From assembly GCA_014695175.1 (NCBI GenBank), contig JACJNV010000092.1, forward strand, positions 1-38,639: a stretch of DNA of 38,639 bases, read 5' to 3'. Shown piece after piece: positions 17,737 to 26,823 of the stretch. This DNA comes from Microcoleus sp. FACHB-DQ6. GTDB taxonomy: Bacteria > Cyanobacteriota > Cyanobacteriia > Cyanobacteriales > Microcoleaceae. The notes beneath the pieces were generated by a model, which was given only the letters and a program-made list of their open reading frames with translations, did not search any database and was not told where the DNA came from. The number at the start of each line of letters is the position of its first letter. Positions within the stretch are counted from its first letter, which is position 1. Made by a program: the position numbers and the translations under genes.

Positions 17737-17962
17737 AATACTCTCCAAAGGTTATTGACAAATGGAACTGACCGTGGAATTTTATCTATACTTCACTGTT
17801 TTAACCTGTTAATGCGGATTGCTCTAAGGGGTCTCAACAAAAATATAGAATTTCCTCTAGAATTGTTAAGACTGAAAACCGCCCGGAAATTTATTTGTGC
17901 GGATTCAATTCAAAACTCAAAATTCAAAACCCAACAATCACAACTATTTAAAAGTTACTGCC

Positions 17963-19246
17963 ATGTCTATTATTGAAATTGCCCAAAAAACGCGCGTATC
18001 TGCTAGAAAATTGGCAGTTTTGTCCGCTAATGCCAAAAATCAAGCTATTGAAGCTATTGCGACAGCTTTAGAAGCTGCTGCGCCGGATATTTTGGCGGCG
18101 AATGCTGCTGACTGCAAGGCGGCTGAGACGGATGGAATAGCGAAACCGCTGTACGATCGCCTAAAGTTGGATGAGAGCAAGTTGAAAAGTGCGATCGCGG
18201 GCGTGCGAGATGTTGCCAAACTCCCAGATCCCGTAGGTTCCGTGCAAATTCACCGTGAATTGGATACAGGATTAATTCTGAAGCGCATCACCTGTCCTTT
18301 GGGCGTTTTAGGCATTATTTTTGAAGCGCGCCCAGAAGCTTTAATTCAGATAGTATCCTTGGCAATCAAATCGGGAAATGGCGTCATTCTCAAAGGCGGC
18401 AAAGAAGCAGTCCGTTCCTGCGAAATCTTGACAAAAGTGATACATCAAGCATTAGCAGAAACTCCTGTTAATCCAGAAGTCGTGCAGTTGCTCACCACGC
18501 GGGAAGAAACAATCGAACTGCTCAAAATGGATGAATATGTAGATTTGATTATTCCCAGAGGTTCTAATTCCTTCGTGCGCTTCGTGCAGGAAAACACGCG
18601 GATTCCCGTGTTGGGACACGCCGACGGAATTTGTCATTTGTACGCAGACAAAGCGGCGGATATTCAGAAAGCAGTAGAGATTTCTGTCGATGCAAAAACT
18701 CAGTATCCAGCCGCCTGCAATGCCATTGAAACCTTGTTAGTTCACAGTGCGACCGCCCCCAAATTCCTGCCCGCTGTTGCCGAAGCTTTGCAGCAGAAAA
18801 AAGTTGAATTGCGGGGAGACGAAAAAACTCGCGCCATCCTAGAAAATATTGCCGAAGCAAATGAAGCGGATTGGTCTACAGAATACAGCGATTTAATTTT
18901 GTCAATCAAAATAGTAGATTCTGTGGAAGAGGCAATTAACCATATCAATACATACGGTTCCCGACATACAGATGTCATTATTACCGAAGACAGCGAAGTC
19001 GCGGAAACATTTTTAAATGGAGTCGATGCGGCCGGAGTTTATCACAATTGTTCGACTAGATTTGCCGACGGTTTCCGCTACGGTTTCGGTGCAGAAGTGG
19101 GCATTAGCACGCAGCAAATGCCACCTCGCGGGCCTGTTGGTTTAGAGGGCTTGATTACCTATAAGTATCGAGTTGTTGGAGATGGCCATGTTGCCGCGAG
19201 TTATGTAGGGAAAGATGCGAAGGGGTTTACTCATCGGGATTTGTAA
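17963..19246 (+). CDS. proA: Gamma-glutamyl phosphate reductase
   Basis: A 427-aa enzyme of proline biosynthesis. It reduces gamma-glutamyl phosphate to glutamate semialdehyde with NADPH. The family signatures are [27 protein letters not shown], the catalytic Cys in [12 protein letters not shown], and [15 protein letters not shown]. The ATG at 17963 gives the standard N terminus ([11 protein letters not shown]); the open frame upstream to 17897 lies in non-conserved sequence. No proB is adjacent, as is common in cyanobacteria. It is divergent from the M48 gene with about 225 bases between the starts. Confidence 0.97.
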
Positions 19247-19375: not shown

Positions 19376-20488
19376 ATGACAGAAAATCCAAATCAACCCC
19401 GAGAATACGATGCTGTCCTTGGCGGTGAATCTCAAGTGCCATTGGCTGCGGCTGTCTTAGGCGGGATTCCCGGCGTTAAAAGTCGGTTAGCTTCTCCCAT
19501 TGTCGAGGTGAAAATTGCTGCACTGTCTGAAGCGCTGAAATATGGAGATCCAGGTTTAGATTTAATAATTGCGGCACTGCAAGATGAATCAATCGCAGTG
19601 AGATTTGCCGCCTATTCGCTGCTGAAGAATAGAGATGAACCACATCTAAAACAGCAGTTCCAAAAATATTTGCCTATCTTTGACTTTGATGTGATAACAG
19701 TTGATGCGTATGGAAAAGAAAACGGTCGCCGCCGTCATTATGCTCATTTCCTCCCCGAAGACTTAGGGAACGGAATTGTGCTGGAAATGGTTTACATTCC
19801 CGGTGGCACATTTATGATGGGTTCCCCAGCAACAGAAGAAAGACGAGAGGAGAGCGAAAGTCCGCAGCATCAAGTAACAGTACCCGCTTTTTATGCAGGC
19901 AAATATCCCATCACCCAAGCACAGTGGCAAGCAGTGATGGGAAACAACCCATCATATTTTAAAGGTGAAAAACGTCCTGTAGACACTGTATCGTGGGATG
20001 ATGCCGTCGAATTCTGTGGCAAACTCTCGCAACAAACCGGGAAAAAATATCGCCTCCTGAGTGAAGCAGAATGGGAATACGCCTGTCGTGCTGGTACAAC
20101 AACCCCATTCCATTTTGGGGAAACCATTACCTCCGATTTAGTCAACCATAACGGAAGCTCCCCCTACGCAAACGCCCCCAAAGGACTTAACCGCAGAAAA
20201 ACAATCGATGTCGGGAGTTTTCCCCCCAATGCCTTTGGGCTGTACGATATGCACGGCAATGTTTGGGAATGGTGCAGCGATGAGTGGTACGAAAACTATA
20301 ACGGCACACCAACTGACGGAAGTTCCTGGGAACCTGGCACAGGTAATACCCGATTGCTGCGTGGCGGTTCCTGGTTCTACTGTCCGGTCTTTTGCCGCAG
20401 TGCCTTTCGCCTCGGGTACGTGGCGGTCCTTAAAGGGTGGCGCTGGGGTTTTCGCGTAGCGGTAGCGTCGGTTTCTCCGTCGTCCTAG
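19376..20488 (+). CDS. HEAT-repeat plus FGE-sulfatase (SUMF1-like) protein, candidate DGR target
   Basis: A 370-aa protein. Residues 1-105 form a HEAT-like region seen in many cyanobacterial proteins (REYDAVLGG, VKIAALSEALKYGDPGLDLI). Residues about 135-365 form an FGE-sulfatase domain: EMVYIPGGTFMMGSP, YPITQAQWQAVMGNNPSYF, RPVDTVSWDDAVEFC, YRLLSEAEWEYACRAG and FGLYDMHGNVWEWCSDEWY. The C terminus keeps RGGSW, CRSA and GFRV, but the positions between, usually Asn-rich, read FYC, VF, F and LGYVAVLKG. This is what a diversified variable region would look like. Such domains have a C-type-lectin fold and often serve as ligand-binding surfaces rather than enzymes. Start ATG at 19376. Confidence 0.9.
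   Translation: MTENPNQPREYDAVLGGESQVPLAAAVLGGIPGVKSRLASPIVEVKIAALSEALKYGDPGLDLIIAALQDESIAVRFAAYSLLKNRDEPHLKQQFQKYLPIFDFDVITVDAYGKENGRRRHYAHFLPEDLGNGIVLEMVYIPGGTFMMGSPATEERREESESPQHQVTVPAFYAGKYPITQAQWQAVMGNNPSYFKGEKRPVDTVSWDDAVEFCGKLSQQTGKKYRLLSEAEWEYACRAGTTTPFHFGETITSDLVNHNGSSPYANAPKGLNRRKTIDVGSFPPNAFGLYDMHGNVWEWCSDEWYENYNGTPTDGSSWEPGTGNTRLLRGGSWFYCPVFCRSAFRLGYVAVLKGWRWGFRVAVASVSPSS
20350..20475 (+). other. Candidate DGR variable region (VR)
   Basis: The 3' end of the FGE-sulfatase gene. The conserved backbone codons (for RGGSW, C-R-S-A, R and GFRV) are interrupted by codons that end in C or T and vary in the first two bases: TTC, TAC, TGT, GTC, TTT, TTT, CTC, TAC, GTC, CTT. This fits mutation of adenines in AAC/AAT codons copied from a template repeat. 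The GC-rich tail at about 20450-20475 would match the priming region. No template copy was noticed elsewhere in the window. Confidence 0.6.
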
Positions 20489-20604
20489 TTTTCCCGGCGA
20501 GGACTCTTTTTTACCCTTTTACCCTCTGCACTTTTTCCTTTTCCATGACGGCCGGAGGGCGATCGAAATCGAATTGTACCTAAATTTTAAAATAGAAAGC
20601 TGTT

Positions 20605-20970: not shown

Positions 20971-21021
20971 AAGCTATACTGTGCTCGGCGACTCCCCAAC
21001 TCGAACAATTTGCCGTGGTTT

Positions 21022-22389
21022 ATGTCTAACTCCTCCCTCCTCGCCCCCGGTTCAACTCTCGAAAAACGCTACCGCATCCTCCGCGAATTAGGCCGCGGTG
21101 GCTTCGGCCGCACTTACCTCGCCGAAGATATCAACCGCTACAACGAATCTTGCGTGCTCAAAGAGTTTTCTCCGGTGGTTCACAGCCCGAAAGCGGCCGA
21201 ATTGTTCGATCGCGAAGCGAGTATGCTTTACAACCTCCAACACCCGCAAATTCCCCGGTTTCGAGAACTCCTGCGAACGGATTTGGGCGGGAATCCATCT
21301 TTATTTTTAGTACAAGATTATATCAAGGGTCAAACCTACGAAGAAATATTGATATCGCGCCAGCAGCATGGTAAAAATTTTACCGAAGCAGAAGTTACTC
21401 AACTGCTATTTCAGCTTTTACCAGTTTTAGAATACATCCACTCAAAAAATTTAATTCACCGCGATATTTCCCCGGATAATATTATTCAGCATGATGCTGA
21501 CAAACTACCATTCTTAATTGATTTCGGTTCTGTCAAACAAATCGCAGCCAATGCCGTAGTTCAGTTTAACGGACAATCGGATACGGCGATCGGCAAACAG
21601 GGTTATTCGCCAGCCGAACAAATCCGGCTGGGGAAAGTTTCTGCTGCTAGCGATTTGTACGCTTTAGCCGTCACGGCTTTGGTATTGTTAAGCGGCAAAA
21701 AGCCTCAAAAATTGTACGATATCAATAATAAAACTTGGGATTGGCGATCGCACGTCAGTGTCAGCCCAAATTTAGCCAGCGTATTGGATCGGATGTTAGC
21801 AGAACAACCGGGCGATCGCTACCAATCTGCAAAAGCAGTCCGCGAAGCACTCAAAGATCCAAAACTATCTCAAATTGGCAGTATAATTTCCCAAATGGTG
21901 ACAATGAACTTTGTCGGCCGCCCTTTCAAAAACACCACTCAAACTGCTACTAGCAATCATACTCCTGTTCACCAAAATCCTCAACTGGTTAATAACAACA
22001 GCACATTCAACTTAATTCCTTGGAAAATCCTAGGGAGTTTAAGTGTCGTTTTGGTGCCAGGAATGTTAGCTTTTAGTGTAGTCAAATCTGGTTTCACTTT
22101 GCCCAAGTTGCCGGATTTACCTAAATTTACTTCGCGCCAGCAACCTCCCGATAAATCCTTAGAGGAAGCCGAAATAATTCGTCAAGAAAAGATTGGTAAA
22201 CGGCGCAAAAATCTCAACATTAATCAAGATATATTCTATCAAAAAGTGGATGAATTATATTACAATAAATATCCCGAATTACAAGGGCGCAGCTTGACAG
22301 AAAAGCCAGAAGATGCTGAAATTAGGCGGAAATGGTATGAAGTTGCTGAGGATTTACTCGACAAGTTGGAGAAAGGAGGAGAGTTGTGA
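21022..22389 (+). CDS. Serine/threonine protein kinase with one membrane segment
   Basis: A 455-aa kinase. The glycine loop GRGGFGRTY is at about 24-32, the ATP-binding Lys in VLKEF near 47, the catalytic loop IHRDISPDNII near 145-155 and DFG at 167-169. The HRD motif is followed by Ile-Ser in place of the more common Val/Leu-Lys, so the usual catalytic-loop Lys is replaced; this variant is frequent in cyanobacterial kinases. A hydrophobic helix at about 333-354 separates the cytosolic kinase from a C-terminal 100-residue charged helical tail. Start ATG at 21022 is preferred over TTG at 21010. The substrate is unknown. Confidence 0.92.
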   Translation: MSNSSLLAPGSTLEKRYRILRELGRGGFGRTYLAEDINRYNESCVLKEFSPVVHSPKAAELFDREASMLYNLQHPQIPRFRELLRTDLGGNPSLFLVQDYIKGQTYEEILISRQQHGKNFTEAEVTQLLFQLLPVLEYIHSKNLIHRDISPDNIIQHDADKLPFLIDFGSVKQIAANAVVQFNGQSDTAIGKQGYSPAEQIRLGKVSAASDLYALAVTALVLLSGKKPQKLYDINNKTWDWRSHVSVSPNLASVLDRMLAEQPGDRYQSAKAVREALKDPKLSQIGSIISQMVTMNFVGRPFKNTTQTATSNHTPVHQNPQLVNNNSTFNLIPWKILGSLSVVLVPGMLAFSVVKSGFTLPKLPDLPKFTSRQQPPDKSLEEAEIIRQEKIGKRRKNLNINQDIFYQKVDELYYNKYPELQGRSLTEKPEDAEIRRKWYEVAEDLLDKLEKGGEL

Positions 22390-26377: not shown

Positions 26378-26435
26378 AATGCTTTAAAGTAACTTTCAAA
26401 TGGCTTAAACCATTGATTTTACGTCACTTTTTTTA

Positions 26436-26823
26436 TGGAACTGGGCAGAATCGAACTGCCGTCCAAAGCGGGTATTTACCTTCCGATCGTTCACAGGTTT
26501 ATCCCCTCTAATCCTCGGGGCGGGAACCATTTTTATCCCAAATGGGGGGATTTTCTAGTGATTGCTTTCCTAGCTAGCCGACTAGAAACGTTTAGCTAGG
26601 GCATCCGTTGGGGGTTGTTATGCTACCGTTAACGGAGTGAGGTGGCATACACTCTAAACCAAGCTCAAGAAGTTTTTAGGCTACAGCTACGGCTTTGCGA
26701 GCGAAAGGAACGATGTTGTTCGCATTTACTATTTTTTTTGAGCCGATATTAACGAGAGTAGACTCCCTCTCGACCTGCATCACGGAGCAGCTTTCGCCAC
26801 CCTGTCGAAACCATTACAGCCCC
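26436..26823 (-). ncRNA. ssrA: Transfer-messenger RNA (one-piece)
   Basis: The 5' end GGGGCTGTAATGGTTTCGAC and the 3' end GGCAGTTCGATTCTGCCCAG-TTCCA form the tRNA-Ala-like domain, with CCA encoded. The total is about 388 bases, a normal length. The tag frame reads GCG AAC AAC ATC … GCC TAA, giving ANNIVPFARKAVAVA, a cyanobacterial-type tag. The order 5' half then 3' half is unpermuted. tmRNA with SmpB rescues stalled ribosomes and marks the unfinished protein for proteolysis. Confidence 0.95.

Follow-up and report, generated by a model that had tools for sequence, protein, structure and literature searches.

The 3′ end of an FGE-sulfatase gene in Microcoleus sp. FACHB-DQ6 was probably diversified in the past, as a remote target, by a diversity-generating retroelement (DGR) of the cyanobacterial Avd-reverse transcriptase (RT) type, and is probably now an orphaned, fixed variant. 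The window, i.e., the whole stretch of 38,639 nucleotides that was analysed, is contig C395 of a draft genome (G000; 6.72 Mb, 402 contigs, 98.26% complete). Direct support comes from the anatomy of the variable region (VR), the adenine bias of its substitutions, its divergence in place and the absence of the DGR machinery from the assembly; we further infer that diversification preceded the loss, that the VR has a ligand-binding role and that nothing supplies RT in trans today. The features to which the following refers are:

19376–20488, + strand: variable-protein gene, 370 aa, with a C-terminal FGE-sulfatase (lectin-like) domain (translation, Pfam and phmmer)
20360–20508, + strand: VR and constant ends, from RGGSW to the end of GGACTCTT (first 93 bases by template comparison, end by tail comparison)
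20375–20446, + strand: variable core, 24 codons between RGGSW and GFRV (orthologue divergence and adenine mismatches)
20501–20508, + strand: GGACTCTT, target-type (IMH-like) 3′ end (tail comparison with templates)
17897–19246, + strand: aldehyde dehydrogenase gene, upstream synteny marker (PF00171; 94.5% identity in M. vaginatus HSN003)
21010–22389, + strand: protein kinase gene, downstream synteny marker (PF00069; 95.7% identity in HSN003)

The sole Pfam domain of the 370-aa protein is PF03781 (FGE-sulfatase; aa 137–362, 192.5 bits). The earlier note had mentioned a HEAT-type N-terminal domain; at E <= 0.001, Pfam detected none ahead of the FGE domain, although the sequence there looks HEAT-like to us. 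A phmmer comparison with PDB entry 2y3c, variable protein 1 of Treponema denticola, gave an E-value of 4.4e-25 with the best stretch at residues 222–362, VR included; the protein is also similar in sequence to many FGE proteins. PF03781 and 2y3c thus assign the variable domain to the lectin-like fold by sequence, and the FGE-like domain is shared with the Treponema protein, which differs in belonging to an active DGR of its own organism. With regard to the neighbourhood, the upstream aldehyde dehydrogenase gene appears proA-like by our reading. In two other genomes of the genus, 187 bases (G011) and 334 bases (G012) separate the upstream-gene match from the match to the kinase stretch, with no FGE gene in the interval. 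The window also contains a tmRNA gene (26433–26823, − strand), a full-length match to Rfam family RF00023 at 117.2 bits.

The fixed words of the protein were located as claimed, with RGGSW at 20360–20374, CRSA in the middle and GFRV at 20447–20458. The RGGSW-CRSA-GFRV frame is general to FGE-sulfatase proteins, and two loci from two Nostoc-like genera (L147 and L154) have not only the frame but also the residues between its words in common. The frame alone therefore shows little. The first 93 VR bases equal in length and constant ends the templates found in three other genomes (G025, G001, and G014), with which they form a near-repeat. A search of the window’s own genome with 20290–20520 as query revealed five VR genes, namely the window gene and those on contigs C59, C55, C31, and C184. 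The C59 and C31 genes carry a protein kinase domain ahead of the FGE domain, while the front part of the C55 and C184 genes is the same as that of the window gene. In a codon alignment of the five paralogues, RGGSW, CRSA or CRAA, and GFRVAV are constant and the codons between them vary. The VR of the C184 gene (L005, G000:C184:355-595) comes within 355 bases of a contig end; the possibility that this contig is the cassette locus of G001 cut by the contig end was rejected, since the two stretches share only the FGE gene and short repeats. A GC-rich hairpin downstream of the VR is a feature of some DGRs. Such stems were found downstream of some, not all, VRs in other genera with a DGR RT (25 chosen loci), and none was found at the five VRs of G000 (perfect stem of at least 6, loop of 3–9, within 190 bases past the core match).

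The 3′ ends of targets and templates differ by one base. GGACTCTT is present in the window and in three of the four sister genes, with C55 being without it, while all three templates of the genus (3/3) end in GCACTCTT, one base off from the VR ends just beyond the repeat. This was extended to 136 VR-pattern rows, 14 of them template rows (at least 9 Asn), in which the word ACTCTT was sought within 95 bases; rows without the word were left out, which removed 71 of the 122 non-template rows and six of the 14 template rows. The base preceding ACTCTT is G in 34 of the 51 remaining non-template rows (A in 9, T in 7, C in 1), as opposed to C in five, T in three, and G in none of the eight template rows. 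The elements at the VR end and the template end of DGRs are named IMH and IMH*, respectively, and the contrast between GGACTCTT and GCACTCTT may be read as this distinction.

Substitutions in the window VR are directed at adenines. Compared with the G025 template, mismatches occur at 20 of 23 template adenines and at 14 of the 49 other bases (p 3.2e-6). The C31 VR has mismatches at 14/23 adenines and 7/49 other bases of the same template, and the C184 VR at 16/23 and 4/49 against the G001 template. For the C59 and C55 VRs, the adenine bias against same-genus templates is weak or none (10–14 of 23–24 adenines vs 12–18 of 48–49 other bases; p 0.047–0.17). The three same-genus templates all leave 14–16 non-adenine mismatches to the window VR. 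Twelve other VRs that share the tail were used to infer a further template, with the window and the real templates excluded and A called where at least three bases each reach 12%; this template starts with GGSWNNNAVNCRSANRN, as does the real G025 template, and diverges from the latter further on. The window VR mismatches this inferred template at 22 of 26 adenines and at 9 of 46 other bases (p 8e-8, leave-one-out), a test which by itself is compatible with selection, since the inferred adenine columns mirror shared variability. The share of window mismatches at adenines thus amounts to 20/34, 21/37, and 22/38 against the templates of other genomes and to 22/31 against the inferred one; the cut-off used for cyanobacterial DGRs is more than 80% of VR mismatches at adenines of the VR’s own template (Vallota-Eastman et al., 2020; PMC7517822).

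The codon positions show a corresponding shift. Differences among the five paralogues, pooled over pairs that are not independent, number 125/105/81 at codon positions 1/2/3 of the VR, as against 391/311/831 in the remainder of the domain. Between the window gene and its syntenic orthologue in G018, the 24 codons of the VR show 13/15/3 differences and 334 codons of the gene body show 42/34/50 (p = 0.0012, Fisher), so that 28 of the 31 VR changes fall in codon positions 1–2. This single-pair test is the exception among statistics that pool related sequences and are hence descriptive. The codon-position result argues against selection alone, and the real templates of the genus carry AAC/AAT at variable codons. 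The C184 VR, whose tail is AVALAVPSSLSSL as in G001, belongs by its mismatches to the G001/G014 template lineage. Because it fits a second lineage, at least two DGRs probably served G000 in the past. The window, C59, C55, and C31 VRs would derive from a template not found, nearer to that of G025.

The genus was represented by 29 genomes, G000 included, one per species. Divergence in place was followed at the window, C55, and C59 loci; the C31 and C184 genes lie outside this comparison, as does the locus G001:C124, whose VR falls outside the search pattern. At the window locus, G000 is 94–97% identical to G018 and G020 in the flanks, 87% in the gene body and 57% in the VR (41/72). Of the 72 VR bases, 31 thus differ between the window and either relative, where the earlier note would have taken orthologues with identical residues at all variable positions as evidence against a DGR target. 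Six orthologues at the C55 locus have VR identities to G000 of 47–65% with bodies at 87–89%, and the VRs of all seven compared genomes differ. At the C59 locus next to purF, four orthologues reach 67–68% in the VR and 89–93% in the body. VR identity is lower than body identity in all 12 syntenic pairs with a window, C55, or C59 gene of G000. Adenine-directed substitution, the codon-position shift, and this divergence in place together uphold the proposal of a DGR target at the end of the FGE-sulfatase gene.

Among the relatives themselves, the picture differs from locus to locus. The window VRs of G018 and G020 are identical (72/72), with gene bodies at 982/990 (99.2%) and flanks at 96–97%; since the bodies are closer than the flanks, some of the identity between the VRs may stem from a recent exchange. 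The purF-locus VRs of these two genomes are likewise identical (78/78) and each matches that of G012 at 77/78 bases, with bodies 93–94% identical. The identical window VRs and the near-identical purF-locus VRs are signs of fixation. At the C55 locus, in contrast, the VRs of G018 and G020, neither of which has a DGR RT, share 38 of 72 bases and differ at 34, so that not every VR is old and frozen. A VR of G027 (L175) resembles the C55-locus VR of G018, whose downstream flank has no more than 75–80% identity to those of the others (79% in the G018/G020 pair); this low flank identity makes exchange with other strains likely at this locus.

No cassette lies near the window gene, in agreement with the remote target that had been proposed. 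A template and an RT elsewhere in the genome, which the same proposal called for, were not found: five probes of the 402-contig, 98.26% complete draft detected no DGR RT, Avd (at E 1e-5), spacer RNA, or template. Within the limits of a 402-contig draft, this is the outcome (no RT or template in the complete genome) that the earlier note had regarded as refuting a DGR target. Absent machinery and a diverged VR do fit together, however, if the DGR that diversified the VR is now gone. An RVT_1 search of G000 yielded three RTs (on C368, C163, and C83), all of which were rejected as DGR RTs, as they are group II enzymes with a PF08388 maturase domain and TIGR04416 as best NCBIfam model. Two of them score above the TIGR04416 cut-off and the third, which is cut by a contig start, below it; one carries an HNH domain (Pfam). 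No template-like family was seen among the repeats around two of these RTs (L013 and L015). Since RVT_1 gives the DGR RT of G014 80.6 bits, a DGR RT in the G000 assembly should have been detected. G000 gave a lone weak spacer match (31 bases, E 0.007), which recurs almost unchanged in G018 and G011; the adjoining sequence that was read contains no template.

The interval between purL and purF suggests one place where a cassette may have been. On C59 (L250, G000:C59:16000-22500), purL is followed by the kinase-FGE VR gene, about 800 bases and purF, and the interval is whole and without machinery. The purF neighbourhood of G025 holds DGR machinery, and the purL-purF interval is empty in G001, where the matches abut. 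As the interval varies, a cassette may have been lost from it in G000, although there is no scar. A 91-base match (82%) between the sequence past the G025 RT and the G000 purF interval was not taken as a clean deletion scar, because related stretches occur elsewhere in these genomes. The 5′ flank of the G014 cassette has only a 64-base match in G000.

Across the genus, a DGR RT occurs in five of 29 genomes (G014, G025, G026, G028, and, truncated, G008), and Avd was found at E 1e-5 only in G008, G014, G025, and G028. As many as 23 of the 29 match a hypothetical template, i.e., contain a VR or a template, and 19 of these 23 are without a DGR RT. A whole cassette is present in G014, in the order VR gene, template, conserved spacer, bAvd (PF22296, 63.6 bits), and RT (RVT_1, PF00078). 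In G025, template, spacer, Avd, and RT lie beside purF, while the RTs of G014, G026, and G028 are on contigs other than that of purF. Template and spacer adjoin the VR gene in G001 (L086, G001:C155:14737-15575), where neither Avd nor a DGR RT was found. The VR of G028 runs directly into the spacer, which Avd and RT follow, and the stretch read contains no separate template (L217:7600-7900, G028:C93:29596-29900); this arrangement looks like the product of a VR-template recombination that removed the template. G008 has Avd and its truncated RT, and the RT of G026 lies close to a contig start. The single-contig genomes G018 and G020 and the six-contig genome G011 contain VRs, and no DGR RT was found in them. 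The spacer between template and Avd (L089:9225-9415, loci L197–L206) is conserved across several genera, and AGTCCAGACC occurs in most of the template tails compared. An Rfam search of two cassette loci (L088 and L089), spacer included, returned no family at the gathering score.

These observations are consistent with the following course of events. In an ancestor, a template RNA would have been copied by an error-prone RT misreading adenines, and the mutated cDNA would have replaced, in trans, the 3′ ends of the window gene and of its sister genes on other contigs, with the C184 gene probably served by the second template lineage. Judging by the family, the changed residues would be those of the FGE domain’s lectin-like face. 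Template, spacer RNA, Avd, and RT would later have been lost from G000. With the machinery gone, the VR variant would be fixed, and it would now be inherited as part of a lectin-like, probably sensor, protein. A point against this course is that a cassette of 2–3 kb could sit in the gaps of the draft or on an unassembled plasmid. The window VR could then be a live remote target, still rewritten in trans by a complete DGR that is missing from the assembly or resides on a mobile element which comes and goes. Remote targets and activity in trans have been published (PMC7517822; PMC10907252), the five RTs of the genus, one of them truncated, lie at differing places, and the C55-locus VRs differ among all seven genomes. 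Given the five negative probes of G000, the lack of an RT even in single-contig relatives and the identity of the G018 and G020 VRs at two loci, we nevertheless consider a live target quite unlikely.

Homologous recombination may have contributed to the spread of VR alleles, such that genomes without an RT import variants from RT-bearing relatives. This concerns spread and is compatible with an orphaned target diversified in the past; we regard it as possible but somewhat doubtful. The window-locus body is less alike than the flanks between G000 and G018/G020 (87% vs 94–97%) and more alike than the flanks between G018 and G020, and the resemblance of the G018 C55-locus VR to that of G027, next to a poorly conserved flank, points the same way. 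The adenine pattern itself is left unexplained by recombination, and no donor for the window VR turned up among the loci compared. Somewhat less probable, and rather speculative, is the wider notion that Microcoleus keeps a pool of ready-made DGR targets in machinery-less genomes; the cassette would come and go, or VR alleles would be exchanged, so that the genus shares a repertoire of sensor variants made by minority lineages. That no DGR was ever involved, and that ordinary strong selection or gene conversion acted at the ligand face of FGE-like lectins, is very improbable. The generality of the frame, surface loops that are variable in many families, and the weak adenine bias of C59 and C55 against the available templates would agree with it. 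It is contradicted by the window-G018 comparison, in which 3 of 24 third positions and 28 of 48 first and second positions have changed, by the AAC/AAT codons of real templates in the genus, and by the one-base difference between VR and template ends just beyond the repeat.

The kind of target is already known. Remote lectin-type DGR targets have been described in cyanobacteria, along with all3226 of Anabaena PCC 7120, a paralogue that has remnant TR-VR homology and no RT nearby, and the degraded cassette of Anabaena sp. 90, of which only the RT is left; it has been suggested that the diversifying parts may be removed after a good variant is selected (PMC7517822). DGR targets of multicellular bacteria, some of them remote, have been proposed to act as antigen sensors (Dore et al., 2024; PMC10907252). 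The window gene and its sisters resemble the published cyanobacterial targets in their C-terminal lectin-like domain, 3′ VR, dispersed paralogues, and kinase-fused members (PMC7517822). In contrast to these, neither a DGR RT nor a template was found anywhere in the present assembly, the orphaned state extends to five VRs at once, and intact and broken states occur side by side within one genus. Thiohalocapsa PB-PSB1 similarly has FGE-type lectin domains among its targets, several loci and remote targets, but most of its targets are diversified in nature, and a section of its description deals with transposons at the loci (PMC10907252). What is new is the case, in which one genome has five targets that are orphaned, broken cassettes occur across its genus, and syntenic loci are compared. 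The terms Microcoleus and FGE do not occur in the main text of PMC7517822. The single paper that matched both DGR and Microcoleus names the genus twice, for nucleotide diversity and in a reference; no account of orphaned DGR targets in Microcoleus is among the titles listed, a search whose scope leaves most subscription literature outside.

Surveys that start from the RT miss targets that outlive it. A single genus here shows a whole cassette (G014), a template without RT (G001), an RT without recognizable template in the stretch read (G028), a truncated RT (G008), and VRs alone (G000, G018, G020, and G011), and its orthologous loci make the fate of a hypermutated sensor after loss of the mutator testable. 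Selection may keep a chosen variant, as the near-identity of the VRs at the purF locus in G018, G020, and G012 suggests. Elsewhere in the same family, a DGR RT match with an in-frame stop (L066, G035:C237:1906-2958) may mark another cassette in decay.
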